Source: Xestospongia bergquistia (Eukaryota > Porifera > Demospongiae > Haplosclerida > Petrosiidae). Taken from it: DNA of 64,000 nt. The DNA is taken from positions 2,180,001 through 2,244,000 of the forward strand of contig OZ014413.1 of the NCBI GenBank assembly GCA_963965975.1, in the 5' to 3' direction. The position numbers were made by a program, and so were the translations under genes. The notes beneath the pieces are model-generated. The model had not been told where the DNA came from and did no database searches. It saw only the letters and a list, made by a program, of their open reading frames with translations. Of the stretch, positions 3,627 through 64,000 are shown piece after piece. Positions within the stretch are counted from its first letter, which is position 1. Each line of letters starts with the position of its first letter.

Positions 3627-6082
3627 CTATAACTGGCTTTTTAGAATATGGGCATCTTTAGGTCTTGTTGGTTCACTGTGCATCTCATCTGTGTTATTCT
3701 CTTCCTTCCAGTTAATATTAGTCCCATATAAAATGTGTTCAGAGGCACCTTCTCCTCCATCTAAGATAGGTACATATCCACAATAACTAGGATCTATAGA
3801 ATTAAGAATTGCACATAACTTACATACTTAATAGTTATTATGAAGCTATTAGTATTTGCTGTGATATCTAACCTTGTATTAGAAATCTTTTTAGAAAAGC
3901 ATGACAAAGTTCCATATTCACTTTGTGTGCCATATACTTATCCAAGGGAGAATTTGTCAATTTCTTTAGTGCTCCAAGAATGGGAATAAAAGGAACATCA
4001 GTTTGACTAAAGTGTGTGCTGCCTCTATGTTTAAAACAGAGTTATCAAAAAGAGTTTGTAGAATATATTTGCTTTAATTGCTTACATTATAGTATATATT
4101 GTACAATCACTCAATCCTATATAATAAGAATAGGTAAGAAATCACATTAAGTTATTAGATATAGTACAGAGCTATTGAGTCATACTTTCAGTACATGATA
4201 TAGGTACACTTTAATACAATGTTTATATTTTTCCCTTAGAGACACGATGTACTTTTTAATGACAGACTATGTAAGTATATTAACCTGATTTAGAAGTAGG
4301 TTTTACCAGTTTCATCATGCAAGTAATATTTTCATCCCAATGAAAGTCAAAAGAGTTAATAAATGTTAATGGTTGATGTATACCATGTTTATAGATATCT
4401 CTATGGAGTGGATACATCCAGGTATCCAATGCAATACCACACCTAAGAAAATATGAATGAATATTAGATATTACAAATGTCTAATGACTGATCTATGTGA
4501 AAAACCTCTATAATCAAAGTATGATTGAATGTAATCAATTTGTTTTTACTCGTTAAAATAAAAATAAGGTGAAATGCATATCTACAAACTGCATATTAAA
4601 GGTTACCTAAATCTTGGATCTTCACTTAGTACTTGTACAACAGTACCTCCACCAAATGAGTGACCGGCGACAGCAGCTAACTCCATGTTTAAACAACCTT
4701 TGAACTGAGTGAAGTCAAAGTGTCCTCCTAACATGTCATGTACATCACCACCTTCATTAAGGAGGTGTAGTATATCTAAGGCTTGTCGCACCTCTTTAGC
4801 ACGCTGTCTAATCTAAAAAATAAATGATAATTTTAACATTTTATGTGTTAATAACTGATTATAGAGGTAGTCTAGTAGTAACAATAATCAATTATCATTG
4901 CAATTTATCTGTGGTTCTTAATTTGTTGAAGTATTAAAGTAGAGACTCATGTGAATTTGTATAATCATGCACATAGTGTACATTTGCATTGATTTTCCTT
5001 TTTAAGGCTTAATGCATCCAAAACAACTAGAAGGTCTTAGGTTTAAATCTCAGCTTAAGGATTTCTTTTAGACTGTTTATTTCTCGTAAAGTAATGCATT
5101 TTGTGCAGAACATCTTTAATAGTCACTAATTTATCTACATCCTATCTTTGACGACTTTATTATTTATATATTTGTTTTACCTGCTTATTTCTTAAAGGGA
5201 AACCAGCATTTCCCATTTGATTATCAGAAATAGGCATAACTTCATTGTTTGGGATCCATTCATCAACATATTGGTCATATTGTCCCACTTGAACTCCAGG
5301 ACCTGGTACTCGTTTCAGAGCAAGTAGAGCCGAGCCATCTTTATGTTCAACAGCAGCAACAACATAACCATGAGAAGCAAGATCACTACAAATACCACTA
5401 TAGGCAAAGAAGTGACCAGATAGCCCATGACTGAATACGACAACTGGGAATCCTTTTGTAATGTATTTATTGGCGCTAAAAAAATGTTTTGAGGAACATT
5501 GTATAAGAGGTGAATTCAACAGTGCAGGAGTTCTGGGCACTATAAATAAAGGAAATGTTTATTGAAATAGCTATAAAATAACTAAGTCATTTACCAACTA
5601 TACGTTTTATTTTTCAAGTAATAAAGTCTGCATCCTCCAATGCAATATCTTGCTGATTACTATGCAAGCATAGATATTGCAGTGGATACATCAAGCACTA
5701 TTACCTGAAATGGGAGGAGTTTGACCTTTTTGTATTACATTTAGATATAACATCATGCTGATAGTAGAAAGTTATGACATAACTTACATGAGTACATTTG
5801 CTGTACTTCAGGCAATATACTTGATAAAGGGACATCAACAATATCCAAGAATGCCTTCAAATAGTTAGGATGAGGAAGATACTTAGCATATTCAATTTTT
5901 GTAGCCAGATCTTTCTCAGTAGGGTAGTACAGTCGTAAATGAAGATCTTGATGCATCAAATGAGTACATCCTACTTCATAGTTACCAGAGGGACCTGGTA
6001 TACCTTCAAGTCTCCACCTTTCTGCCATTACTGAATAATTAGCAATATAAATCATTGCTATGAATATAATTATAGATATCAT
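3627..6082 (-). CDS. PAF-acetylhydrolase-like lipase, copy C (complete, 6 exons)
   Basis: Exons 5788-6082, 5181-5539, 4607-4812, 4285-4442, 3873-4022 and 3627-3793 join to 1335 nt (444 residues). The triad is intact: GHSFGG, LDTWMYPL, GSTHFSQTD. Unlike most copies it has a hydrophobic N-terminus, MISIIIFIAMIYIANYSVMAERW, that looks like a signal peptide or signal anchor placed ahead of the usual MAExW start. This copy may therefore be secreted or membrane-tethered, more like plasma PLA2G7 than PAFAH2. The next in-frame ATG, at MAERW, would give a cytosolic form. Exon 1 and its upstream flank are duplicated almost exactly at 9890-10650. The intron between exons 3 and 2 (4813-5180) holds nothing recognisable. 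Confidence 0.88.
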
Positions 6083-35390: not shown

Positions 35391-35571
35391 TTCTATTACC
35401 AAGAGTTTATGGGAAACGTTATTATAACCTTTTTGAATGCATAAATTAGCTACTCACGTTTCAATATACGCTACATAATTTAATAGTGTATTAGAATCTA
35501 GGTCAAAGTTTATAGTCCTGCACTATAATTAATGTTCATAATATCTTATTTGAGACACGCCCTCTTTCAAA

Positions 35572-37695
35572 ATGGATGGTTCATGGATATTGAGCAACCC
35601 AGACTACTACTACTTAGTGGATATATTACATGCTAATGAAGAAGAATGGTGTGTTACATATGAGAGATTCATATCGATGAAAAACCTCACTGTTGCTTCA
35701 GTTAGCTTCTCCTCAGGACTTGATGTCTTTTTAGCTATGGTATGTCTACACAACAGGGCTGATATACTCCAGTACTTTTTAGAAACATATTCGAACGCAT
35801 GGAATATTGACAGTCTTATACCAATTAATAACAAAGACCTCACTTCAAGCAAAGGTAGCGTGGAAGCATACCTTTTCAATAACTTACACCAACACACCAC
35901 TATGTATCAACCACCCTGTCAAAGTAAACAAGTTAGAACATTGTTATGTTATGCTGCATTAAGTGGTCATATAAATGTAGTCATGCATTTGCTGGAACTT
36001 AATGCATCAGTTGATATTTCTGATTGTTGCGAGCTTACTCCATTGATGGCATGCTGTGAGTACAATTGCCAGCCATTGGTAGAATGCAGCTGTGAATATA
36101 AGAGTAAATCTATTGAGACGAGGCCTAAAATACTATCATTGCTTGCCTCTAAAAGAGCTAACCTTAATCACAGAGCTCAACGTGGCATGACTCCTTTAAT
36201 GTATGCCTCATTAAGAGCACCATTATTGGTTCATCGTCTTTTTAAAGAAGGGGCTTCTATTCATCTCACTGATGATTTTGGTTTCACTGCTCTTCACTAT
36301 GCTATATTAGGAGGTAGCAATGATGCTTTGTTGTACCTTTTACAACATCAGGCAGACATTTTGTTTCAAAACACTTCCATAATTCCATGGCCAATTCAGG
36401 AATCAACTGAACCATTAGAACTATACTATTTAAGTGACAAATATTCAAAGTCGAAGCAAGGCCATTCTATAATCACACTTCTTATTAATCACCCGCAATG
36501 TCCTAATATTGTAAGAGCAGAAGTAGTTGCTTTGATAACACTGTTTCATACAATTAAAAAGCTGAAATCATCAAGTGATAGAGCAATGTGCAACCTACAA
36601 CTGGAAAGAAATATTCTGCAAGAACTGCTAAATTTTAGACAACAAAACTTACAGAATTTTAAAGAATCTTTTGATATTATTTTGTTGTTACAAACAGAAC
36701 TCAATGGCATTGAAGCAGTCAATTTACCTCAGTTGATCCAGTTAACAGAATTAATGGTTGAAAAAGGATACTTATCATTCTTAAACTATGTTTTGGGTTA
36801 CATTGGAGTTGGGCTCCATCCTGATAATAATACTAGTGACAGAAAGGGTACTGTTAGTCTGCTAGTAAAGATGTCTGACCTTTTCTTGTCTATTTGTCAC
36901 AGACACAAAGCTAAGTTAATGTATGATCCTCACTTTATTCTTCCATTAATGGAGCAGTGCCTACTTTTAACACAATCACTAGTGAGTTTTGTAGATATAT
37001 TAGGAAAATCATGGACGACATTAGGAGAACAAGTAGTTTCTAATGTTATAGAAACAATAATATTAATAAACAAACTAATCCAAGAGCTTCGTCCTCATTC
37101 ACATGATACTCCAATACTCCTTCGCCCATTCTATTCATTTATTTTTACCATACTTAACAGTTGGATTGAAGCTGGTTCCTTAAGTTCATTAGCAAAGGAC
37201 ATTGTACATCAATACATCTGCCATTGTCCTCCTACTCTAACATTAGCAAAACTTTCTAATGACAGTTACAACTTATGCTCAGCAATAAGTTTTGCTTTTA
37301 CATCAAACTGTACTGATCCTGTCAAATTTATTAAGTGCATACTTCAGTGTGGTGGTAAGGAACTTGTTAATAGTCCAAGCTTGTATGGAGGTTGTCGACC
37401 TCTTTCATTAGCTATTATATTAAGTTCTAGTTGGGATCAATCTATTGCTTTGTCTTGTATAGACATTTTTCTAAATTTTGGAGCTCATGTCGATGCTGTA
37501 GATCAGTTAGATGTTGGCTCTGTTCTAAAAAGTCCCTCTCTTATTAATATTTTTGAGCTTCATACGCCTCTTGCTTTGTCTTGCCTTGTTGCAAAAACTA
37601 TTATTCAATTTGATATTCCATATAAAAATTGTTTACCTACACATATTGTAAAATTTATAGAACTTCATGATATAAGAGTGTTTAATTTTGTTTAA
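35572..37695 (+). CDS. FEM1-like ankyrin-repeat protein with BC/Cul2-box-like tail (divergent member)
   Basis: Single-exon gene of 707 residues. The N-terminal third has ankyrin repeats (VRTLLCYAALSGHINVVMHL, then RGMTPLMYASLRA and FGFTALHYAILGGSNDALLY; about residues 120-265). The middle (about 290-560) is helical and replaces the TPR-type region of FEM1. A final degenerate ankyrin unit (about 590-650) contains FGAHVDAVDQ. The C-terminal PLALSCLVAKTIIQFDIPYK and LPTHIVKFIELHD line up with the FEM1 VHL-box (BC-box Cys and Cul2-box LPxxI). By analogy it is a substrate receptor of a CUL2-elongin BC ubiquitin ligase; this is inferred. It is the most divergent FEM1-like gene here and the only intact one on the plus strand. 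It is transcribed away from the POT-I gene at 35022. Confidence 0.7.
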   Translation: MDGSWILSNPDYYYLVDILHANEEEWCVTYERFISMKNLTVASVSFSSGLDVFLAMVCLHNRADILQYFLETYSNAWNIDSLIPINNKDLTSSKGSVEAYLFNNLHQHTTMYQPPCQSKQVRTLLCYAALSGHINVVMHLLELNASVDISDCCELTPLMACCEYNCQPLVECSCEYKSKSIETRPKILSLLASKRANLNHRAQRGMTPLMYASLRAPLLVHRLFKEGASIHLTDDFGFTALHYAILGGSNDALLYLLQHQADILFQNTSIIPWPIQESTEPLELYYLSDKYSKSKQGHSIITLLINHPQCPNIVRAEVVALITLFHTIKKLKSSSDRAMCNLQLERNILQELLNFRQQNLQNFKESFDIILLLQTELNGIEAVNLPQLIQLTELMVEKGYLSFLNYVLGYIGVGLHPDNNTSDRKGTVSLLVKMSDLFLSICHRHKAKLMYDPHFILPLMEQCLLLTQSLVSFVDILGKSWTTLGEQVVSNVIETIILINKLIQELRPHSHDTPILLRPFYSFIFTILNSWIEAGSLSSLAKDIVHQYICHCPPTLTLAKLSNDSYNLCSAISFAFTSNCTDPVKFIKCILQCGGKELVNSPSLYGGCRPLSLAIILSSSWDQSIALSCIDIFLNFGAHVDAVDQLDVGSVLKSPSLINIFELHTPLALSCLVAKTIIQFDIPYKNCLPTHIVKFIELHDIRVFNFV

Positions 37696-40411: not shown

Positions 40412-42430
40412 CTAATAATGAATTGAGACATGGGAAGCAAAAGTGCATACATGTGATGAATATGGAACAATTTTGGTTACAATGGTCTTAGGGTCATGAA
40501 GTTCAATATGTTTAACAATATGCTTAGGAATGTCTATAAATTTGTATGGTATACCCTCAGAGACAATGGTTCTTGCAGCATAACAAGAGAGTGGGAGGGG
40601 TCTACTACACAAAAAGGCCTTAACAGGACTTTTGCTAGAACAGAAATCTAAAGGAGTTTTACCACGTGCATCTACAGCATCAATGTGTGCTCCATACGAT
40701 AGCAGAAGGGACATGTCATGAACAGAACATGTCTTTTGTTGTGCTAAACAATGAAGAGGTCTTCTCCCTCTTTCATACACACAAGGACTATCAATTACTT
40801 GATGTGCACCCCATAATAATAGCAGTTCTAAAAAATATGTTCTCAGTTGCACTGTAGTATTATCATATGATAAAACATGAAAAACTGTGTACCCTGATGT
40901 AACCAGAGAGATTGTTAAAGATACCATTCTGCGTCCTAATGTATGAAACTCAGTTGGTAGCGTAGACAATGACAGAAAGGAGTCTTTTTTTGTCAATATC
41001 TTTAGCCAAGTTTGAAAACACAAGACAAGTGTTAGTATATTATGATTTGTTTTAGAAGTCTCACCAACTTTCTCAAAAACTAACAAGGCAATTTTAGCTA
41101 AACATGAAATACTGTCACTAGGATTACAACTAAACGAAGAAGTCAAACATAGAATTGAATTAAAAACAGAACCAACAAAATCTTCATTTATTATCTTTTT
41201 ATCAATATTCAAAAGACACACTGCAAGAGCTCGATGACAAAGACCATCAATATTCCTATCTTTAATCTCTGCTCGAATATTTGCAGCACTTTTTAGAATT
41301 GATGACACTAAAGATAATTCATACAAACCTAAACAACGTTCACGAACCAGTAAATATTGATATTGACGACCAATAATCAGAAAATCACTGCTTTGTGAAA
41401 CAGTATTTAATTCACTATTTGTTTTAATTTCTTGAACATATTCATATTCTTTTAATGGTGGAAGATATGTTGGTTTGTCTGTAGTTGTTTCAAAAATTGC
41501 TAGCCCTGCCTTCCAAAAAGGCTCTTCATATGTATATGCTACATTACGTACATCATGCATTGAAGAACTGGCAAGTAAAATGTAAGCATTACCTTTACAA
41601 ATATCTGGGCAGCTTTTTAAGTCACAAAGATACTCGACACTTGCTTTAAAGCCATAGGCAGCAGCTAGATACAAAGGACAAGGCACAAAATCCTCACTAG
41701 TTGAATCTTTAATGGAGAAAAGAGGAGATACAAGATGAGCTAGCAATGCTTTTATGATATCAAGTTGCCCATAGCGAGCAGCTTCATGAACAACAGTGTA
41801 ACCTTCGATTGATTTGTGGAATGCATTGGCTCCTCTTAATAACAAAAATTCAACTACTCCATCAATAACCATCTTTTGTTCTTCATTTATAACATTTACA
41901 CATTTCTCTTCACAGAAACCTAGACCACATATCATCATTAATGGAGTACATCCTCTGTAATTAGTTGTATTAACATCCATACCACTATCTAGAAGATACT
42001 TCATCACAGACAGACACCCATACTGTGCTGCCACATGTAATGCACCACCCCAATATGGTGCCTGCTTGTTAAGATCAGCTCCTTTAGACACTAGATACTT
42101 TACCATTTCCACATTATCATTGGTACAAGCTGCTACTAATGGAGGCACTGAATCAATTAATCTTGGTTGTTTATTGCACTTTGCCATATGTTGTGATGGT
42201 TGGAGATAGAGACGTACTCCTTTGTTGATGTCTATATTAAATTCAAATTCATCTAAAAGATACTGTATAATCTCATAGTAACCATCACGAGCCGCTTGAA
42301 CTAAGGTAATATTGTAAGGAGAAGACCTCTGGTTAAGAGTATGCTTCTTTTCTAACTTTAAGAAAACAGCTTTTAATTTCGTAAGTTTTCGAGCATGAAA
42401 AAGGTTTACAATTTTCTGGTAACTAGACAT
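40412..42430 (-). CDS. FEM1-like ankyrin-repeat protein, CUL2-receptor type, copy 1
   Basis: Single-exon gene of 672 residues from the ATG at 42430 (MSSYQKIVNLFHARKLTKLK). The GTG at 42445 upstream is not needed. Ankyrin repeats cover about residues 40-270, with VPPLVAACTNDNVEMVKYLV, GGALHVAAQYGCLSVMKYLL and GYTVVHEAARYGQLDIIKAL. The region around 345-450 matches the FEM1 TPR part (YQYLLVRERCLGLYELSLVS; human FEM1 has LLIRERILG). A further ankyrin pair follows (YERGRRPLHCLAQQ, LLSYGAHIDAVDARGKTPLD). The tail PLPLSCYAARTIVSEGIPYK and IPKHIVKHIELHD is the BC-box/Cul2-box. Unlike its paralogues, which stop 3-8 residues after LHD, it runs on for about 20 residues, probably from a lost stop codon. 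Tandem with the copy at 42861. Confidence 0.8.
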   Translation of the reverse strand: MSSYQKIVNLFHARKLTKLKAVFLKLEKKHTLNQRSSPYNITLVQAARDGYYEIIQYLLDEFEFNIDINKGVRLYLQPSQHMAKCNKQPRLIDSVPPLVAACTNDNVEMVKYLVSKGADLNKQAPYWGGALHVAAQYGCLSVMKYLLDSGMDVNTTNYRGCTPLMMICGLGFCEEKCVNVINEEQKMVIDGVVEFLLLRGANAFHKSIEGYTVVHEAARYGQLDIIKALLAHLVSPLFSIKDSTSEDFVPCPLYLAAAYGFKASVEYLCDLKSCPDICKGNAYILLASSSMHDVRNVAYTYEEPFWKAGLAIFETTTDKPTYLPPLKEYEYVQEIKTNSELNTVSQSSDFLIIGRQYQYLLVRERCLGLYELSLVSSILKSAANIRAEIKDRNIDGLCHRALAVCLLNIDKKIINEDFVGSVFNSILCLTSSFSCNPSDSISCLAKIALLVFEKVGETSKTNHNILTLVLCFQTWLKILTKKDSFLSLSTLPTEFHTLGRRMVSLTISLVTSGYTVFHVLSYDNTTVQLRTYFLELLLLWGAHQVIDSPCVYERGRRPLHCLAQQKTCSVHDMSLLLSYGAHIDAVDARGKTPLDFCSSKSPVKAFLCSRPLPLSCYAARTIVSEGIPYKFIDIPKHIVKHIELHDPKTIVTKIVPYSSHVCTFASHVSIHY

Positions 42431-42860
42431 ATTACTAACTGTCACGCCCTTCTAGGAGACAGGAAGTACTATAACCTGATTATAAAAATTGTAAATTATT
42501 TGTAGTGGCATGGCTGTATGATCAACAGATTAGAAAATCTTGAAGTCTGTATCCTAAATTCAAGTAAATAGTAAAAACAGAGGTAAAGACCAAGAACTTT
42601 ATAAGTGAATCTCCACAACTCCACCTTGATTTTCATGAATATAATAGTTGTATAATATAACGTGACTCTTTCAGAATATTTGAAGTCTTTAAACATTAAA
42701 GGCCATACTTAAATACGCAAAAATAAATTCAACTCATACAAAAGAGGAAACATCAAGATAATTATGTAATAAGTAGATGTTATACATGAGAAGATTGTCT
42801 AAAAAGATAAAAAGATACACATAAGTCATATTTTTCAATAGTGTAGACATGTTCAAAAGA

Positions 42861-44852
42861 TCACATGTCAAAATCGTGAAGTTGAATTAGTTTAACAATA
42901 TGTTTTGGTAGATTTAGAGACTTGTACGATATACGCTCAGATACAATAGTCCTAGCTGCATAACAAGAGAGTGGTAGAGGTCTAATAGCTAAGAGAAGAG
43001 CATGAATAGGATTATCACTAGAACAATAGTCTAAAGGAGTTTTACCAAGTGCATCTACTGCATCAACATGGGCCCCATGTGAGAGAAGAAGAGATATCTC
43101 ATCAACAGAACTTTCTTTCCGTTCCACAAAGCAATGAAGTGGCCTTTTACCCATTTTGCTGATATATGGACTATCAATTACTTGATAGGCTCCCCACGAC
43201 AAAAGCAATTCCACATAGTATGCTCTAAGCTGAGGTAGAGAATCATTACAACATCGATAGTTTAGAAAATGAAAGACAGTCAATCCTGATGTTAAATGAG
43301 AAAGTGTTGAAGATACCAATCTATGTCCAAGTGTGTGAAATTTTTTTGGTAGTGTAGCCAACTCATAGAAAGATTTCTTTTTTGTCAGCACATTGAGCCA
43401 TATTTCAAAACATTGCACAAGAGTTTGGATCTCATAATTCATCTTAGAAATTTGGCCAATTTTTTCATATACTAACAATCCAACTTCAGCAACATATGAA
43501 ACACATTCACTAGGTATTCGAGTAAAAGAGGAAACCAAACGCAGTGTTGAATTAAAAAGTGATTCAGCAAATTCTTTACTGATAACACATTTATCAATAT
43601 TTAAAAGGCACACTGACAATGCTCGTTGACAAAGACCATTAATGTTTTTTGTTTCAATTTCTGCTCGAATATTTGCAGCACTTTGCAGAATAGATGCCAC
43701 TAAAGATATTTGATGTAAACCTAAACAACGTTCACGTATTAGTAGATATTGATACCGGTGGCCTATGACACGGAAGTCACCATTATACCATGCTGCTTTT
43801 AGCTCACTCTTATCTTTTATTTCTTGAGAGTATTCATACTCTGGTATTAGTGATGGATATGTTGGCTTATCATTAGATGTTTCTAAGATTGTAAGACCCA
43901 TTTCCCAAAAACGTTCTTCATATGCTGACCTAAACATATTGTCCATTGTAGAACTGGCAAGTAAAAGGTATGCATTGCCTTTACATATCAGAGGACAGTT
44001 TTTCAATGCACAAAAAAACTTAACCGTTTCATCATGGCCATTTGTTGCAGCAAGATATAGAGGACAAGGTACATAGCCCTCACTACATGAATCATTTGTA
44101 GAAAAGAGAGGAGAGATACCATGAGCTAACAAAAGTTTAATGATGTCAACTCTTCCACAACGAGCTGCTTCATGCATCACAGAGTATCCTTCAAAAGTTT
44201 TGACATAAAAATTTGCTTGTCTCGATATAAAAAATTTAAAGACATCATTCACATTTGGATTTTCTTCTACTTTACCACTATAAGCAACATACTTCTTCTC
44301 ATAAGAAATACCAAGACCCCACATCATCATTAATGGAGTACATCCTCTGTAATTAGTTGCATTAACATCCACACCACTATCTAGAAGATACTTCATCACA
44401 GATATACATCCATACTGTGCTGCTACATGAAGAGGACCACCCCAATATGGTGCCTGCTTGTTAAGGTCAGCTCCTTTTGATACTAAATACCGTATCATTT
44501 CCACATTATCCTGAGTACAAGCAGCTACCAATGGTGGTACAGAGTCCATTCTTTTTGGTTTAAAGTAAAAGTATTCTTTCAACTTAATTGGATATGGTGG
44601 TCGAATATCAACATTCACTTCTTCATTTACGACTAAATTTGCCTCAAATTCATTAAAAAGGAATTGGACAAAGTTGGAGTGATCATCATGAGCTGCACTG
44701 ACTAAAAGGTTGTTTAAGGAACTTCCTTGACCTTCCTTCTCAAGATGAGTGTGCAAAATGCCTTTTAACTCGCTCAGTTTTCCAGCATGAAAAAGATCAA
44801 TGACACTCTTGTAATCTGCCATTATGCATAGGTAATAGCTAGGTGTGGTCAT
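42861..44852 (-). CDS. FEM1-like ankyrin-repeat protein, CUL2-receptor type, copy 2
   Basis: Single-exon gene of 663 residues from the ATG at 44852. The second ATG at 44822 (MADYKSVIDLFHAGKLSELK) aligns with the starts of the other copies and is the more likely one (653 residues). Ankyrin blocks: VPPLVAACTQDNVEMIRYLV, GGPLHVAAQYGCISVMKYLL, GYSVMHEAARCGRVDIIKLL. TPR-type region with YQYLLIRERCLGLHQISLVA, then KRPLHCFVERK and LLSHGAHVDAVDALGKTPLD. The tail PLPLSCYAARTIVSERISYK and LPKHIVKLIQLHD is VHL-box-like. Predicted soluble E3 substrate receptor; substrates are unknown. It forms a head-to-head pair with the POT-II gene at 46140, about 1.3 kb apart. Confidence 0.82.
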   Translation of the reverse strand: MTTPSYYLCIMADYKSVIDLFHAGKLSELKGILHTHLEKEGQGSSLNNLLVSAAHDDHSNFVQFLFNEFEANLVVNEEVNVDIRPPYPIKLKEYFYFKPKRMDSVPPLVAACTQDNVEMIRYLVSKGADLNKQAPYWGGPLHVAAQYGCISVMKYLLDSGVDVNATNYRGCTPLMMMWGLGISYEKKYVAYSGKVEENPNVNDVFKFFISRQANFYVKTFEGYSVMHEAARCGRVDIIKLLLAHGISPLFSTNDSCSEGYVPCPLYLAATNGHDETVKFFCALKNCPLICKGNAYLLLASSTMDNMFRSAYEERFWEMGLTILETSNDKPTYPSLIPEYEYSQEIKDKSELKAAWYNGDFRVIGHRYQYLLIRERCLGLHQISLVASILQSAANIRAEIETKNINGLCQRALSVCLLNIDKCVISKEFAESLFNSTLRLVSSFTRIPSECVSYVAEVGLLVYEKIGQISKMNYEIQTLVQCFEIWLNVLTKKKSFYELATLPKKFHTLGHRLVSSTLSHLTSGLTVFHFLNYRCCNDSLPQLRAYYVELLLSWGAYQVIDSPYISKMGKRPLHCFVERKESSVDEISLLLSHGAHVDAVDALGKTPLDYCSSDNPIHALLLAIRPLPLSCYAARTIVSERISYKSLNLPKHIVKLIQLHDFDM

Positions 44853-45137
44853 AATATCATATGCACGTGTTGTCTTGAAGATAATTAAAAAATCAATGAC
44901 TGATACGGTATATCACATTGTTAAATATTATTTATATATTATGTATAGCTGTTATGGCATAACAAAAGTAATATTATGTAATGTATTATGTTATAGCATT
45001 ATAGTTTATGCATTTCATGTTGCATTATAAAACTAAATGCATGTACTATAACATGTACACTATATTGCTATAGTGTATACATTATATGATATTATAAATG
45101 GTGTGGCATAGTCCTTAGGGTGATGATAACTTTTACA

Positions 45138-45500
45138 AAATTCCCAGTTGGCAGGTTTATATAACGCATATAGATCAATGATCCATGATATATCTGATAA
45201 AACTTATCATGAGATTCTTGTTAACCTGCCACTACTGCTCCATGGTGTGTTGTGCAATAGTCTTTTAAATTCCCAGTTGGCAGGTTTATATAACGCATAT
45301 AGATCAATGATCCATGATATATCTGATAAAACTTATCATGATATTCTTGTTAACCTGCCACTACTGCTTCATAATATAGCACAGGCGTGTTGAGCAATAG
45401 TCTTTTAAATTCCTAGTTGGCAGGTTTATAATGTTTATAGACCTGTCAATAATGACAGAATTGATAAAGTTTGTCATCAGGTCCATATAAATTTGCCATT
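45138..45500. repeat. Three-copy tandem repeat of a palindromic unit (period about 129-140 bp)
   Basis: Units start near 45138, 45267 and 45407. The first two are nearly identical and the third is degenerate. Each begins TTCC(C/T)AGTTGGCAGGTTTA and the first two end TTAACCTGCCACTACTGCT, so GGCAGGTT and AACCTGCC invert within each unit. It sits between the FEM1-like gene and the POT-II gene at 46140. The apparent open frame across it comes from the repeat and is not a gene. Confidence 0.85.
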
Positions 45501-53385: not shown

Positions 53386-55377
53386 TTATTGTTTAAGGTC
53401 ATGAAGTTCAATAAGTTTAACTACATGCTTTGGTAGATCTATAGACTTGTAGGGTATTTTCTCAGACACAATAGTCCTAGCAGCATAACAAGAAAGAGGA
53501 GAAGGTCCAGTAGACAAAAGAAGAGAACGAACGTCACTAGAACAATAGTCAAGAGCAGTTTTGCCAAATGCATCAACAGCATCTACGTGTGCTCCATGAA
53601 AAAGCAAAAGAGGTATAATTCTCTCTGTTATAAAATGCCAAGTTTGAATTGCAGCCACATGAAGGGGTCTCCTACCACCATGTTCAAAATCAGGACAATC
53701 TATAGCTTTATCAAAACCCCAGAACAATACACATTTAAATAACTCATACCAGAAATGTTCATATATGAACAATCTCATAGTTGTGTTGGGTTGATAAAGC
53801 AGAATTTGAGATACCAGTTGTTTACCAATTCTATGAAACTCGGGAGGCAGTTTTTCAACTTGAACTTCTTCCTCATTGGTATACTTACTAATCCAAATTG
53901 AGAAAATAGAAAGAATTTTTTGAAGTCTATACTTGTCAATGATTGACAATACATTTTTAAATAAGACAATTGAAAATTCAGCAAATTCTTGAAAAACAGT
54001 ACTATTGTTATCAAGAGAACTTAATTTAGATAATAAGTCTCCTGTATATAATTCGACTAGCTTCTTTGATAAGTCGTACTGAATTGTCATATGATAATGA
54101 CACACTTTGTCAATGTAAATGTTTGAAACAAGCTTTAAAAGGTGTTCTGCCACTTTGTCATCACTTTTTTCTGCAGTTTGCAATATAAATTGGCACAGAT
54201 TACTACAACGCCAGCCTAAATAATGTGCTTGTATTGATATGAGTTGAAATATATACCCAGTATTATGAAATTCTTCAGTATCCCATACGGAAAACAGCTC
54301 TTCCTTACTGGATATCTCTGCTACTAAATCTATGCCAGTTAAACATATAGGCTGTGGTTCAACTCTCAATTGTTCTCTTAAAGTCAATGCTTTGTTCCAT
54401 AGCCCAAAATAATGAGCTGAACTCGCCAATAACAAATAAGCTTCTGCTTTACATTCATTTGGACAATTCTCAAAATCACAGAAAAAATCGACAACTTTTT
54501 TATGCTTGTTAGCTGCAGCAAGATAGAGAGGACAAGGTACATAGTCTTCATTAGTAGGATCAGCAATCAAGAATAAGACAGTCATATTATGTACTAATAG
54601 TAAAGTAATAATATCAAGTCGTCCACAGCGTGCAGCCTCATGCATAACTGTAAAACCATCAATGGTTTTGCTATAGATATCTGCTCCTTTTGACAATAGC
54701 AACTTCACAATATTTGGCTTGTAATCCAGATCACGCCGACCATCACTGTTTACAGCTGCTAGTCGCCGACATATCCTTCGCTGGCGTTTTGTAGTGTGCT
54801 CAGGCTGTTGTGATGGAACATCAAAACCACACACTATTAGTAATGGAGTGTATCCTCTATAATTAGTTACATTCACATCCACTCCACAATCTAAAAGATA
54901 GTTTATTATACTCACACACCCATACTGTGCTGCTACATGAAGAGGACTGCCCCAAAATGGTGCCTGCTTGTTAAGATCAGCTCCCTTAGACACAAGATAC
55001 TGGACTATTTCTAAGACGTTTGTTATACAGGCTACAACTAGAGGTGGTACATTTTTGTGCATTGTTTTTAGTCCATAGTTAGATTTAGTAAGAGTGTCAG
55101 GAAGAGGTACAGTGACAGCACTGCCTTTGTTAATATCAATGATGTGACTGAATTTCTCTAAAAGATACTCGACAACATGAAGTCTCCCACAGATTATTGC
55201 TTCATTGAGAGGAGAAGAGACCTCTGAATTGTTAGGACATAACGCCTGTGGACCAAAACGCTTTACTTCACCGTCAGTAACATCTTCAAAAAAAGTGTGA
55301 AGACCTTCTACATCACCATTGCGACACAAAGTGAGTAAATCTTCATACTGTCTCTGAGGAAAACTATACTCCTCCAT
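53386..55377 (-). CDS. FEM1-like ankyrin-repeat protein, CUL2-receptor type, copy 4
   Basis: Single-exon gene of 663 residues from ATG 55377 (MEEYSFPQRQYEDLLTLCRN). Ankyrin blocks: VPPLVVACITNVLEIVQYLV, SPLHVAAQYGCVSIINYLLD, a repeat interrupted by a basic insert (KRQRRICRRLAA, about residues 190-205) that could be a nuclear localisation signal, and GFTVMHEAARCGRLDIITLL. The TPR-type middle is more diverged (IFQLISIQAHYLGWRCSNLC). Then RRPLHVAAIQT and LLFHGAHVDAVDAFGKTALD. The tail PSPLSCYAARTIVSEKIPYK and LPKHVVKLIELHD is kept. It converges tail to tail on the 51596 transporter. Confidence 0.8.
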   Translation of the reverse strand: MEEYSFPQRQYEDLLTLCRNGDVEGLHTFFEDVTDGEVKRFGPQALCPNNSEVSSPLNEAIICGRLHVVEYLLEKFSHIIDINKGSAVTVPLPDTLTKSNYGLKTMHKNVPPLVVACITNVLEIVQYLVSKGADLNKQAPFWGSPLHVAAQYGCVSIINYLLDCGVDVNVTNYRGYTPLLIVCGFDVPSQQPEHTTKRQRRICRRLAAVNSDGRRDLDYKPNIVKLLLSKGADIYSKTIDGFTVMHEAARCGRLDIITLLLVHNMTVLFLIADPTNEDYVPCPLYLAAANKHKKVVDFFCDFENCPNECKAEAYLLLASSAHYFGLWNKALTLREQLRVEPQPICLTGIDLVAEISSKEELFSVWDTEEFHNTGYIFQLISIQAHYLGWRCSNLCQFILQTAEKSDDKVAEHLLKLVSNIYIDKVCHYHMTIQYDLSKKLVELYTGDLLSKLSSLDNNSTVFQEFAEFSIVLFKNVLSIIDKYRLQKILSIFSIWISKYTNEEEVQVEKLPPEFHRIGKQLVSQILLYQPNTTMRLFIYEHFWYELFKCVLFWGFDKAIDCPDFEHGGRRPLHVAAIQTWHFITERIIPLLLFHGAHVDAVDAFGKTALDYCSSDVRSLLLSTGPSPLSCYAARTIVSEKIPYKSIDLPKHVVKLIELHDLKQ

Positions 55378-55814
55378 CTCTTCTAATTATAGGCTGGCAG
55401 AGCAGGCAGACTATATACCACACCCTCCTGGAAGTCTCAGAAGGGCGTTATAGTCTTGCAACAGCAGACATGTACTGCTATGAATTTGTGACAATTTTTA
55501 AGCTCAATTGTTTTATAATATTTTTGGTAGTAATATAGGCTTGTAAGGTATAGAGTTACTCACAGACAAGCATTATCGTTGAACTGTTCAAGGTAGCATT
55601 ACTTAATTTATTCAATATTTGAACCATCGTGCTGTTAAAAAGGTCCAAAGAGAATTTAAGTATACAGTTTGTTATTGAAATGCAGTATACAACATATACA
55701 TCAAAACCTGTTGCATATAAACTGTATGTGTGATGCTCATTTTTCAATACATTCAAGGAATGTAATTTGCCCAAATGAGAACTCAAAATTAATCCAACCA
55801 CAAACTAATTAAAG

Positions 55815-57050: not shown

Positions 57051-57137
57051 TAAGCAGATACAAGAGTATGATTCCATTAAGAAAAATTTTTCTTTGGATA
57101 TCATATTATTGGTCGAACAGAAAATTAGTTGTTAGTA

Positions 57138-57899
57138 ATGAATGCAGTTTTATTTGCATTACCTCTACTCTTCATTCATGTTGAGATTTCTGATGCATTT
57201 TCAATAAATCCTGGACCAGTTGAACCATGGCCAGCATATTATCCGCCATCTACATGCTACTGGCCATGGTGTCGATGGTGGTGTCGTCCTCTTTGCCCAG
57301 TTTGTCAAAAGTGTTGGGGTATAATATTTCGTCTCAATGCCACAGCAGATGTCTGGTTAGAAGGGAGTAAAAATAGAAATAGCCACAATTTTTTGATTGT
57401 GGGAAAACATCCACAAAATGCAAAAAAGCGAAGTCTTATAAAGTTTGAAAACATTCCCTCAAGCTGTAATACCGTAAAGTCTGCAAAAATGTACTTACAA
57501 TATTGGTATTCTCATAAACCCATTGGGCAGACAGTTACTAACATCAACCGAACACTTCAAGTCCATCAAGTCAAAAAACAATGGAAGGAAAAAGAAGCTA
57601 CTAGTATCTATCGGTGCAATGGTGTTAAATGGAATGAACCCTATGTTGCTCTTGATAATAAAGATGCTAATGCTACTAAATTAGATTTTGTTTATTTCAT
57701 GACATCCACACCAGGGTTATCGTATGTGGAGTTTGATATCACTGAAGCAGCAAAGAACTGGAAATCTGGACAACCTAATTATGGGGTGTTAATCTGGGCA
57801 ACTAATGAGGATACCGATGCTCAAGATATTCGTTTCTTCAGCCGAGAGCACAGCACTGGTACACCATATGTTCACCTTCATTGCTCATACATAAACTGA
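57138..57899 (+). CDS. Secreted DNRLRE/CBM96-type domain protein with Cys/Trp-rich linker
   Basis: Single-exon gene of 253 residues from ATG 57138 (MNAVLFALPLLFIHVEISDA, a signal peptide). The frame continues back to a TTG at 57129, not used. After the signal comes a Pro-rich piece and an unusual Cys/Trp cluster, CYWPWCRWWCRPLCPVCQKC (about residues 39-58). From about residue 65 to the end is one DNRLRE-type beta-sandwich: TADVWLEG, NFLIVGKHP, RSLIKFENIP, SAKMYLQYWY, VKKQWKEKEAT, VEFDITEAAKNWKSGQPNYG, and a final IRFFSREHSTGTPYVHLHC. This domain is common in bacterial and archaeal cell-surface proteins and is proposed to bind glycans. Expected to be an extracellular or matrix protein. The lack of introns and the prokaryote-rich domain leave horizontal origin open. 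Confidence 0.75.
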   Translation: MNAVLFALPLLFIHVEISDAFSINPGPVEPWPAYYPPSTCYWPWCRWWCRPLCPVCQKCWGIIFRLNATADVWLEGSKNRNSHNFLIVGKHPQNAKKRSLIKFENIPSSCNTVKSAKMYLQYWYSHKPIGQTVTNINRTLQVHQVKKQWKEKEATSIYRCNGVKWNEPYVALDNKDANATKLDFVYFMTSTPGLSYVEFDITEAAKNWKSGQPNYGVLIWATNEDTDAQDIRFFSREHSTGTPYVHLHCSYIN

Positions 57900-59036: not shown

Positions 59037-59357
59037 TTAAAAAGTGATTTTCGCAATTTTGATATTCAAGCAATCATCAACTGTCATTTGAACATAATTT
59101 TCATCCATTGTTTGCTCCTCTAAACAAATTGTAAAAGATTTTACATGTACAAGTTGTTGCTGTTCTGTTTTGGAATTATTTGTTTCTTGGGTGATAACTA
59201 ACTGAAGATGACTCCGTGCCTCAGGTTGTACTGGATTACTGACCAAATCAACTAATTCTTCAGTGTCAATAAGCATAAAATCGTTTTCATTTGTTTCTGA
59301 CCTGGATTGTACCTTAACAAATAAAATGTTATCTGTTTCTGATTTCAATAAGTTCTT
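59037..59357 (-). pseudogene. Open frame continuing the caspase-repeat gene past its stop
   Basis: Directly in frame after the TAA at 59358-59360, the minus strand stays open for about 105 codons. It encodes the same kind of acidic sequence (ETDNILFVKVQSRSETNEND, then EARSHLQLVITQETNNSK, echoing the SQLVVTQD block of the repeats) and ends at a TGA or TAA near 59037. It is either a former C-terminus cut off by a nonsense change or a readthrough extension. Confidence 0.55.
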
Positions 59358-62300
59358 TTAATCCTGTGTAATTACCACTAGTTCAGACATGTCCCCATCA
59401 TATGAATTTTCAATATGTACAAACTCTTCATGTTCTAAACATCTTTCGTTTGTACTCTGTTGTTGCTCGTCAATTCTCATTGGGTCAGTGTGAGTTTCAG
59501 TTGTTTCTTGCATGGATTGTACTTCAGTAGACTCAATCCATACAAAGTCATCTTCTGTTTCTGCCTCCAGTGGCTTATTTCTGTCCTGTGTTACCACTAG
59601 CTGAGACATATTCCCATCATATGAATTTTCGATATGTACAAACTCTTCATATTCTAAACATCTTTCATTTGTACTCTGTTGTTTCTCGTCAATTCTCATT
59701 GGGTCAGTGTGAGTTTCAGTTGTTTCTTGCATGGATTGTACTTCAGTAGACTCAATGCATACAAAGTCATCTTCTGTTTCTGTCTCCAATGGCTTATTTT
59801 TGTCCTGTGTTACCACTAGCTGAGACATGTCCCCATTATATAAATTTTCGATATGTACAAACTCTTCATATTCTAAACATCTTTCATTTGTACTCTGTTG
59901 TTTCTCGTCAATTCTCATTGGGTCAGTGTGAGTTTCAGTTGTTTCTTGCATGGATTGTACTTCAGTAGACTCAATGCATACAAAGTCATCTTCTGTCTCT
60001 GTCTCCAATGGCTTATTTTTGTCCTGTGTTACCACTAGCTGAGACATATTCCCATCATATGAATTTTCGATATGTACAAACTCTTCATATTCTAAACATC
60101 TTTCATTTGTACTCTGTTGTTGCTCGTTAATTCTCACTGGGTCAATGTGAACCAAGGTCTCCATTTCATTTTCTAAAGATGGAACTGATATCTTTTGAGA
60201 TAGACTAACAAATTGAGATTCGGTTGTAGTATGGACAAGACCTAACTCAAGAGGTTGTTCTTCCATGGACTGCTTTTCTGGTGATATATGTTCACTAGAT
60301 AAAAAAATATATTTCTATATTTTTTACTGTTTGTGCAATGCATAATTACAATCATACTGGAGCAACTATGTTTGCATATATCTATGAATGGCAGCAAAAT
60401 AAATGCTAAACATACCTCTCCATAGAGTTGAGTATAAAATCATATCCATTAGGTTGTATATACACATGACCTGATAATAACTGTGAGAGAATGTTCAGTA
60501 TGGAACAATTTGGAGATGATTTGAGGATGTTTATAAATTTTGGAATTATTGAAAAATTTGTAATGATGTGAAAATATATGTACTTTTCTGGAATGCATAA
60601 CCGAATATCAGGTTTTGGAATGTCATTGCAAATAGTTTGCACAAATACTAATTTGTCAGTTTTATGAGCATTGGACATATGACTCATAATATCTACTAGT
60701 ATTGCTTCAATTGGCTTCCCTTCAAAGTCATTTATGACATCATGATCTCTTTCAGAAAATATGAAGACAGCTAACATAGTCAATTCTTGTATTCTGCTGA
60801 TAACATTAAACAGCTGATGAATATCTGAGTGAGTAAAGTTATTGTATAAACGAGTTTGAAAATTAAGTTCTTCAAAAGCACTCTTTAAAATTTCTTGTTC
60901 AACAAGAATAGTACAGTTGTTAATGATAATGCATAGCTTGCTATTAATATGCCTAGTCAGCAAAGTAGGCTGTGTGTTATAAACAGGGCTTCCTGTTACT
61001 TCATCAGAAGCTAAACGATTAGAAAATAAAAATTATCAGTAGACATACATTGGATTGGTATGTGTGCATTTATTTATATTGCCTATAACAGCACAATGTC
61101 ATGCTTTGCCATGCAGACATTTCAATCTAGGCTAGCATTCTTTGTTTTGATACTAGCACTGACTATGCTTTATGGATGATGAATTGTTACATTATAATGA
61201 AGTGTCTACATGCAGCACTTTTCTATGTTGTTAGAATAATTACTGCATCTTACATTCTTGAGATGACATCTTGAAAAAAAATTATATTAATTTAGTAAGT
61301 AATGTTTACCTAAAAATGTTTTTCTTTTTGACACAGTGAAGGATGTGCCCCTTGAATTATTGATCTGTAAACAACAAATAACTGCTACATAAATAATAAT
61401 GAAAAAGAACAGGTATAAATGTAGATACTGTTATTATGAAATATGAAAGATCATTAATGCCATTTCTGTAGTCAATTGTTTTATTTTGAGACTGTGTATC
61501 ACTGACAATACTTTAATGCTTTTCTTTTTCAAATCTATTATTATGTATGTAAATAAACTTATAATATACAACAAGATCATGCATCCTACCTTCATATTAG
61601 TATCCTCTGTTTGATGAATTGATTGTTTGCCTTCACAGATAGCTAATTGTGTATTAGTCCTATACATGTAAATAATAATGTCTTCATAATCACATTAATG
61701 TGAAAATCATACATTTCTGGCTTTTCATTCTATGTGTTGACAACTAGTCCATTCTTGGTTGTGTATCATGTGTTGATTTATTCACACTCTCCAAAAATAT
61801 ACACATGCAAAGTATGGACATTATGCCAGATATATAGATACTTTCAAAATTATTAGTCTGTGCATACAATGAGGAGAAATTCAGTGAAAATGGCACAATA
61901 ATCAAGTATATTTAAAAACATATCACATGTTTACCTCATTAAAAACAGTTTATACAGTAAACTATGTCGTATATCAGGTCTTTGATTAAACTTTGAATGG
62001 TGTTTGACTGTGTCTTTTGACACCATTGTCAGAATACTGAGAACGTCTTCATGTCTTGACCATTTTTGAATCTGTTCCATCATACTTTGAATAAATGGAG
62101 AGCCACTTTGTGGATAGCGATGAGCCTCACAATGAGGTTGACAAGGATAAGCCAATAGCATGTCTTCTTCAATAACAATTGCCTCACAACTTTCAGGATT
62201 TACTGGAAGTCTGCAGCACTGAATTACAAACACCTTTGGTTTATCTTTAAGACTTGGACAATTAGCAGTAGAAAACATTCTCTGTATATTTTCTATCGAA

Positions 62301-62746
62301 ACGTTCTGACCATCAGTGCCATACACACCTTCTAAATGTCCATGGCTGAGTATGAAGATAAAGAGGCAGTAGTTGTTGGTGTAATCATGATTTTGTAATA
62401 ATTGAAATTGTCTATGCATTTGATCACTTGTCAAATTATTATGGCATTCCATTTGGAAGTCAAGACTTCTAAACACTTGTTCGATATACCTGGCATCAAC
62501 CTCTGTTCCAGACCTTGTTTTGAATGATGGATGAGTGAAAATTTCATTGTTAAAAATAACACAAACACCATGACCTAATAATGAATAATACTCTGGGTCT
62601 GTATGGATTGATAAGATTCAAAATGAGTAATAACACCACATATAAAATTAATTTTAAGAACAGTTCATTCATGTGTGTGTATATATATATATATACATGA
62701 GTCATAGTAAAGGAAATAATAACTGACCTTGAGGAATACAACTCAT
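59358..62746 (-). CDS. Caspase with a second degenerate caspase-like domain and acidic 73-residue repeats
   Basis: Six exons by splice reading: 62728-62746, 61935-62598, 61590-61659, 61310-61364, 60416-61010, 59358-60294. They total 2340 nt, 779 residues, with all phases consistent. There is no prodomain: MSCIPQ is followed at once by the caspase fold (GVCVIFNNEIF; Arg35 in TRSGTEVD). The catalytic pair is His92 (LSHGHLEG) and Cys135 (VIQCCRLP, where most caspases have QACRG). The p10-like part has Arg167 and GSPFIQSM. The p20/p10 linker is very short. Residues about 285-465 form a second caspase-like module (KLCIIINNCTILVEQEILKS, FIFSERDHD, FVQTICND) without the His-Gly dyad context and with a displaced Cys. 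Residues about 470-779 carry four acidic repeats. Inferred role: a regulated or scaffolded caspase. Confidence 0.8.
59361..60180 (-). repeat. Four tandem 219-bp coding repeats (73 residues each)
   Basis: Exact period of 219 bp (for example GTACTCTGTTGTTTCTCGTC at 59671 and 59890). Each unit encodes INEQQQSTNERCLEYEEFVH-like, then SQLVVTQDKNKPLE, DDFVCIESTEVQ and ETTETHTDPMR. The units are close to identical, suggesting recent expansion or homogenisation. They are rich in Glu, Thr and Gln. Confidence 0.9.
62671..62695. repeat. (GT)n(AT)n microsatellite
   Basis: Short mixed GT/AT run inside intron 1 of the caspase gene. Confidence 0.85.
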
Positions 62747-63414: not shown

Positions 63415-63955
63415 TTAAAGTTGAGATTCTTGCTGTGGTGTAGGCAAACAATCGAGGGCAGCTCTCTCAAGATCAAATATTGCTGCAATGGAATTCTGAT
63501 GTAGTTGGTCCACGTACTTTGTAACTCTGTCTGTAATATCAGAGTTATCTTCGGTCAAGAGTATGTGATTAATAATGCTAGTTACAGTAGTAAGTAATGT
63601 GGCTCGGCACTTGAATATTTGTTCTGTCAAGCTCTCATTTACAACCACGTTTGACAAAATCAATTCGACAATACTTTGAAGTTGGCTTTCTATTGATATA
63701 TAGTCTGACAAGATTGTTTTTGAGTGGACAGTTTCATTACTAGCAGGTAAAAGACTGGCTACAGGCAATCCAATAGCATACGATAGGACAGAAGCCTGAT
63801 AAATTCCTTTTAAGACAATGTTTGATCCATCTTGACATGGAGAGTGCTGTAACTCATCTCTTTGGTCAGTAATGTGTTCACATAAGCTTCTCCCTATGTT
63901 GGTTTTTATTTGAGCAATCAGCTCAAGTGTCAATGAGTTATTGGATATTTCAGAA
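63415..63955 (-). CDS. Last exon of an unrecognised gene (partial)
   Basis: Minus-strand open frame from a plausible acceptor (TTTTAG, exon start at 63955) to a stop at 63415, about 180 residues. The product is helical and rich in Leu, Ile and Ser (for example SQLQSIVELILSNVVVNESL and ITDRVTKYVDQLHQNSIAAI), with no transmembrane segment or known motif I can name. The upstream exons lie beyond the window. It is on the same strand as the caspase gene, about 670 bp before it. Confidence 0.5.
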
Positions 63956-64000
63956 CTAAAATGTAAGAATAAAATGAACAATAAAAAGGTCTATTAATAC

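Follow-up and report, generated by a model that had tools for sequence, protein, structure and literature searches.

An active-looking caspase, a diverged pseudo-caspase and an acidic repeat tail in one predicted sponge gene with ApoL-tailed relatives

As a rule, a caspase and the pore-forming effector that it cleaves are two different proteins. In pyroptosis, for example, the caspase controls a membrane-permeabilising partner, gasdermin, which is a second protein with a fold different from that of apolipoprotein L (ApoL). Pore formation by ApoL is known from mammals. An active caspase may also work beside a pseudo-caspase, as caspase-8 does with c-FLIP(L), these being separate proteins joined via death effector domains. 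Active and inactive caspase domains have been reported in one chain as well. Coral (Acropora) caspase-X, a multi-gene type, carries an inactive domain, described in the accessible text as lacking both His and Cys, N-terminal to the active one, and truncation of the inactive domain raised HeLa cell killing (PMC4715348). In mammalian caspase-16 the caspase domain is duplicated within one gene and one copy is without the dyad; according to the accessible part of that source, the inactive copy is an N-terminal prodomain, the gene is confined to mammals and no ApoL is described (PMC12198278). In Mytilus coruscus, the CASc domain is duplicated in four caspases, the activity of the copies not being described in the text available (PMC10967218). 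As for ApoL, ion-channel formation is reported for mammalian APOL1 and APOL3, with a hairpin that has been compared with colicins and BCL2 proteins; the accessible text does not describe vertebrate APOLs as caspase fusions (PMC7891394). For Porifera, the available part of one source reports only NLR and caspase-1, and no gasdermin (PMC11508797). Our gasdermin search of the sponge genome considered here gave no match, but as control genomes were equally silent this does not demonstrate absence.

The gene described here lies in a 64,000-nucleotide stretch of the genome of the sponge Xestospongia bergquistia (contig OZ014413.1, positions 2,180,001 to 2,244,000; hereafter the window). The sequence-only reading of this stretch had claimed a closed frame of 779 codons, spliced from six exons, with His92 and Cys135 in a first caspase domain. 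This model is borne out by its GT-AG borders and by the motifs ILSHGH and VIQCCR. On the minus strand, from 62746 to 59358, the six predicted exons join into 779 codons followed by TAA, and all five introns are GT-AG, with phases 1, 2, 0, 1 and 2. Exon 1 (62728..62746), set by a GT donor and the frame, holds the ATG, six codons in all and one extra base, and is predicted to be without a prodomain. Exon 2 (61935..62598), identified by its match to PF00656, encodes the first caspase domain (domain 1). Exons 3 (61590..61659, 70 bp) and 4 (61310..61364, 55 bp), placed by frame and splice sites, form a linker. Exon 5 (60416..61010, 595 bp), assigned by profile, hhalign and tree, encodes the pseudo-caspase (domain 2), with KLCIIINN at residue 294, IFSERD at 353 and VFVQTICND at 391. 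The last exon (59358..60294) holds the acidic tail and the TAA.

Like caspase-X, this model has an inactive and an active caspase domain in one chain, and it shares the duplicated domain with the Mytilus proteins. In contrast to caspase-X, whose inactive domain comes first and for which the accessible text describes neither an ApoL nor an acidic repeat tail (PMC4715348), the active domain is N-terminal. The pseudo-caspase beside an active caspase also recalls c-FLIP(L) and caspase-8, and the way of working is likely the same; however, only seven codons precede domain 1, with no death effector domain among them, so that the link used by that pair is missing from the model. It had been claimed that active/inactive pairing is known only from separate proteins, and caspase-X and caspase-16 show otherwise. 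Consequently, the idea of a protein carrying its own pseudo-caspase in cis stands as far as one predicted chain combines a caspase that looks active with a genuine pseudo-caspase relative, a combination kept across a family, but pairing in cis is already published. The claim of an undescribed domain order has held up: neither the active-then-inactive order, with or without a repeat tail, nor a caspase-ApoL fusion was found in the literature searched, in which subscription papers were mostly out of reach. What appears to be new is the domain order, an exchangeable tail slot and the ApoL-tailed sister genes, whereas the partner in cis, although well grounded in sequence, is not new in kind.

Domain 1 is, judging by the catalytic and pocket residues that it keeps, an active-looking caspase. 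Pfam Peptidase_C14 (PF00656) matches it with an E-value of 1.6e-46 over positions 17-223 of 228, and caspase-8 chains in the PDB match at 3e-27. The catalytic dyad consists of His92 within ILSHGH and Cys135 within VIQCCR. Arg35, Gln133 and Arg167, which we take to be the usual residues of the caspase Asp pocket, sit at the aligned pocket positions. Leu replaces the final Gly of the QACRG motif. Between Cys135 and the small-subunit strand there is only a short stretch, with one Asp (position 152), which makes ordinary inter-subunit cleavage doubtful.

Domain 2 is far more diverged. Searched alone, it gave no Peptidase_C14 match in Pfam, and its best PDB match (caspase-3, E 0.16) was not significant. 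Therefore, its homology is not proven by the single sequence. An HMM built from nine other second domains of the same genome, however, assigns it 35.2 bits (E 1.1e-9), and none of 2,372 decoys exceeds 11.2 bits. With an HMM of 15 other caspase exons, a set that contained the window gene's own first domain, the score is only 12.4 bits (best decoy 7.1). Using hhalign, domain 2 aligns with the nine second domains at a probability of 96.5 (E 7.4e-10, 151 columns) and with ten first-domain-type caspases at 77.2 (E 2e-5), and within the chain BLASTP relates domain 2 to domain 1 at 4e-5. With the window copy left out, the nine other second domains find caspases in the PDB with E-values reaching 5e-26, and Peptidase_C14 matches nine of the ten second domains, the exception being the window copy. 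AlphaFold gave a mean pLDDT of 35.1 for domain 2 alone and 44.1 when it was aligned with the window's domain 1, values too low to justify a fold search; the strand and helix order of the second model has a caspase-like look, to which we give no weight. Taken by its profile and alignment matches, domain 2 is truly related to caspases, although it has diverged strongly, in agreement with the degenerate caspase-like domain proposed earlier. That it had also shed its active-site contexts holds fully for the His and with a reservation for the Cys. None of the ten second domains has a His at the catalytic position of the profile alignment, and in the window copy SER stands where SHG is expected; by this alignment, the catalytic His is lost. 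The Cys of QTIC lies one residue off the catalytic position in the profile alignment, but a two-sequence alignment places it on Cys135. Loss of the catalytic Cys is thus very probable on sequence grounds and hinges on one alignment residue.

Whether the two domains belong to one gene was examined across the family. A candidate acceptor of the same phase precedes the first domain in all eight unbroken cases scanned, and both the second domain and the tail in each of ten, in a scan that gave other candidate acceptors as well. An all-phase scan of donors at the 3' boundary of the second domain ranks a phase-2 donor best in nine of ten cases, with a tie in the tenth. The intron leading into the tail measures 57 to 178 nt in nine loci; here the joins were limited to phase-2 donors and are open partly by construction. 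Between the acceptor and the domain, a Met is absent from nine of the ten second-domain exons. The missing Met and the shared intron phases lead to the one-gene reading, and the evidence favours both caspase domains being encoded by one gene, the agreement being strong without amounting to proof. The alternative is that there are two separate genes and that the joined frame is an artefact of splicing by hand. The shortness of the two predicted linker exons speaks for it, as does the fact that in AT-rich DNA chance can yield such intron matches. Against the lack of a start codon before the second domain and the sameness of candidate phases throughout the family, we regard it as very improbable.

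The window gene is a member of a larger set. The genome (146.5 Mb in 21 contigs) has at least 99 PF00656 matches, and in 25 genome stretches of about 10 kb we found 11 pairs of caspase-fold exons in tandem. In eight of these pairs the first domain is unbroken and retains both His and Cys, in two it is split over two frames and in one, L010, it has lost both residues. There (L010:2751-3503), the His (SYG) and the QxCR motif are gone, which leaves two dead caspase domains and an ApoL. In a tree of 31 domains, which excludes split and duplicate loci as well as five others that were weak or divergent, ten second domains form one clade with a support of 97/97. The pair of an active-looking caspase and a pseudo-caspase is, on this evidence from sequence comparison, an old architecture shared within the genome. 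For three close sister pairs of second domains dN/dS is 0.30, 0.45 and 0.48, and for close pairs of first domains it ranges from 0.37 to 0.44; the values apply to pairs with at least 38% identity, a range in which the window second domain has no close relative. The ratios point to purifying selection on the dead domain in these three sister pairs. Some members show signs of recent rearrangement. Two segments, L015:1-2930 and L016:3032-5951, are 99.5% identical and represent a recent duplication of one caspase-pseudocaspase-ApoL gene. The first domains of L011 and L012 are 90% identical (dS 0.10) and their second domains less than 38%, which looks like gene conversion or exon exchange; L011 also has broken second-domain fragments at 4041-4230. 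No relatives were confirmed in viral contigs. Death effector domains have 12 matches in the genome, on contigs C11, C9, C7 and C8 and none on C3; those at C11:6691414-6708281 lie beside PF00656 matches and likely belong to caspase-8-type genes.

The same tree bears on the possibility that in the window gene domain 2 is a relic in decay and the protein a plain caspase with an acidic tail. The window first domain groups with the first domain of the neighbouring pair and with two single-domain caspases, L022 and L023 (100/99), which show no second domain in the stretches examined. The window second domain is the most diverged row, with an end branch of 2.64; it and the neighbour's second domain are long branches that join each other, so their exact placement is unsure. 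Together with the absent Pfam match and an in-frame stop within the fourth repeat copy of the tail, these observations would fit a relic. However, the 595-bp exon has remained open with good splice sites, the profile is kept over 151 columns, and sister second domains are under purifying selection. We therefore think it unlikely that domain 2 is a relic, and continue with the reading in which it is a retained partner of domain 1.

The exon that follows the second domain is ApoL-like in nine of the 11 pairs. Seven of the seven sister tails tested exceed the Pfam cut-off for the apolipoprotein L family (PF05461), with E-values from 6.2e-12 to 8.3e-17, and an HMM of those seven detects two further ones, in L016 and in L014b (split over two frames); all ApoL-tailed pairs, L010-L016, are on C1, outside the window, where the sequence-only reading could not see them. 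The sister ApoL tails have two or more strongly hydrophobic stretches, and a PDB search with them returned no significant chain match. The association extends beyond the pairs. The genome contains 25 PF05461 matches, and 16 of them have a PF00656 match no more than 3 kb away on their 5' side and on the same strand, about 0.025 such cases being expected by chance; a PF00656 match on the 3' side of ApoL occurs in 1 of 25. When the second-domain protein query is included, at least 20 of the 25 ApoL matches have a caspase-fold exon in the 3 kb before them. Among those 20, at least nine have a first-domain match within 6 kb, and at least seven of the nine have QxCR, the counts of 20, nine and seven being minima drawn from 24 of 70 and 11 of 81 rows of matches. 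Many of the caspase-ApoL loci are tandem copies and so do not represent independent events. Since only nine of the 20 have a first domain, many ApoL partners would lack a protease in cis. In particular, about 11 loci, in which a caspase-fold exon and ApoL occur with no first-domain match nearby, look like a pseudo-caspase with ApoL and without an active partner and are possible stand-alone genes (C1:8512482, 1268403 and 1275356; C2:4222282, 4235580, 4266034, 10393489 and 10750816; C6:1072956; C7:256741 and 357218).

In the window gene, acidic repeats occupy the exon slot that is ApoL in the sisters; PF05461, found in the tails of nine sister pairs, is not among the 16 Pfam families found, and the tail has no match to it. 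A third kind of tail belongs to the neighbouring pair, whose two caspase-fold domains fall outside the window, past its end, and whose predicted last exon lies within an open frame at 63415..63990 on the minus strand. Its tail slot is a 191-residue frame with a very weak ApoL likeness at its start (6.7 bits, equalled or exceeded by 3 of 5,000 shuffles), which hhalign does not find significant (probability 1.3, P 0.041), so that the likeness, as a matter of sequence, is suggestive only. A second copy of this frame, 92% identical and with a TAG, is found at C3:2260809-2261303. Judging from the predicted exons, the slot behind domain 2 is thus one that holds exchangeable tails: ApoL, acidic repeats or the 191-residue frame.

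The acidic tail has 78 D/E against 18 K/R in 314 residues. Its tandem repeat of 219 bp (73 residues) extends over 59372..60150 on the minus strand and has 3.6 copies; where four 73-residue repeats had been counted from the letters, there are three complete units and a fourth of which 40 residues are present. Copy 4 is cut by the in-frame TAA, after which the frame is open for another 106 codons (59037..59357, minus strand) with a make-up like that of the repeats, probably a former part of a longer tail. Each full unit carries two [DE][DE]Fxx[IV] motifs. The tail as a whole has seven matches to [DE][DE]Fxx[LIV], as many being seen in 0 of 1,000 shuffles, a control that overstates the enrichment because the seven are copies of two sites. 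The literature on the motif idea yielded only general autophagy papers. No relatives of the acidic tail were found elsewhere in the genome; the sequence-only reading had given the repeats a putative role as a docking platform. Obc1_cap, Peptidase_S7 and Hs1pro-1_N exceeded Pfam cut-offs in the tail; these are unrelated families matched over short stretches, and we attribute them to repeat-driven chance.

We consider it fairly probable that the product of the window gene is a caspase that carries its pseudo-caspase partner in the same chain, the two domains pairing in cis and the acidic tail providing another output than in the sisters. On this model, domains 1 and 2 would form an intramolecular dimer comparable to that of caspase-8 and c-FLIP(L), and domain 2 would hold or set the activity of domain 1 until a signal arrives. 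In the ApoL sisters, the protease might control or release a membrane-permeabilising domain of its own chain, as if caspase and gasdermin were one molecule; if this reading is right, these proteins would share with the caspase-gasdermin system a caspase that controls a membrane-permeabilising component. Their composition suggests, at the level of predicted domains, that the ApoL sisters may be self-contained cell-death proteins. In the window protein, the control unit would be the same but joined to a different output, the acidic tail recruiting a partner instead of attacking a membrane.

Domain 2 could instead act in trans, the window protein pairing with other caspases, such as the ApoL sisters, as a soluble decoy or regulator devoid of a pore domain. 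The same exon slot indeed has ApoL replaced, sister genes are numerous, and c-FLIP acts in trans (PMC11121540). However, the first domain keeps its catalytic residues, which is unexpected for a pure decoy, and it shares little sequence with the sisters (29-31% identity with the first domains of five ApoL-type ones and 24% with that of L010). Action in trans seems to us decidedly unlikely, and pairing in cis remains our preferred reading.

Going further, one may speculate that this genome encodes one-protein death machines, made of an active caspase, a pseudo-caspase regulator and an ApoL effector, as a cis equivalent of caspase-gasdermin in a lineage reported to be without gasdermin. The window version would have swapped the pore-former for acidic repeats whose EEFVHI and DDFVCI resemble Atg8/LC3-binding motifs, which might make it an autophagy-linked or regulatory caspase. 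We put this forward tentatively and regard it as rather doubtful. A gene family that did combine a protease, a dead regulator and a pore-type domain would hint that lytic cell death arose early or by a parallel route. It would also make the part played by a pseudo-caspase testable in a fixed 1:1 complex, and would mean that active/inactive pairing in one chain evolved with either domain order. Should the death reading prove wrong, an ancient functional connection between ApoL and caspases is still indicated by at least 20 of 25 ApoL matches being placed after a caspase-fold exon.

The neighbouring genes of the window (ankyrin, transporter, NHL and CBM96) offer nothing that would explain the caspase gene. 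The next gene beyond the acidic tail, on the plus strand at 57129-57899, is a frame with CBM96 and disaggregatase-repeat matches. Four large ankyrin-repeat frames are located at 35554-37695, 40412-42451, 42861-44912 and 53386-55386, and a 129-bp tandem repeat at 45138-45372 has 1.8 copies with 98% matches.
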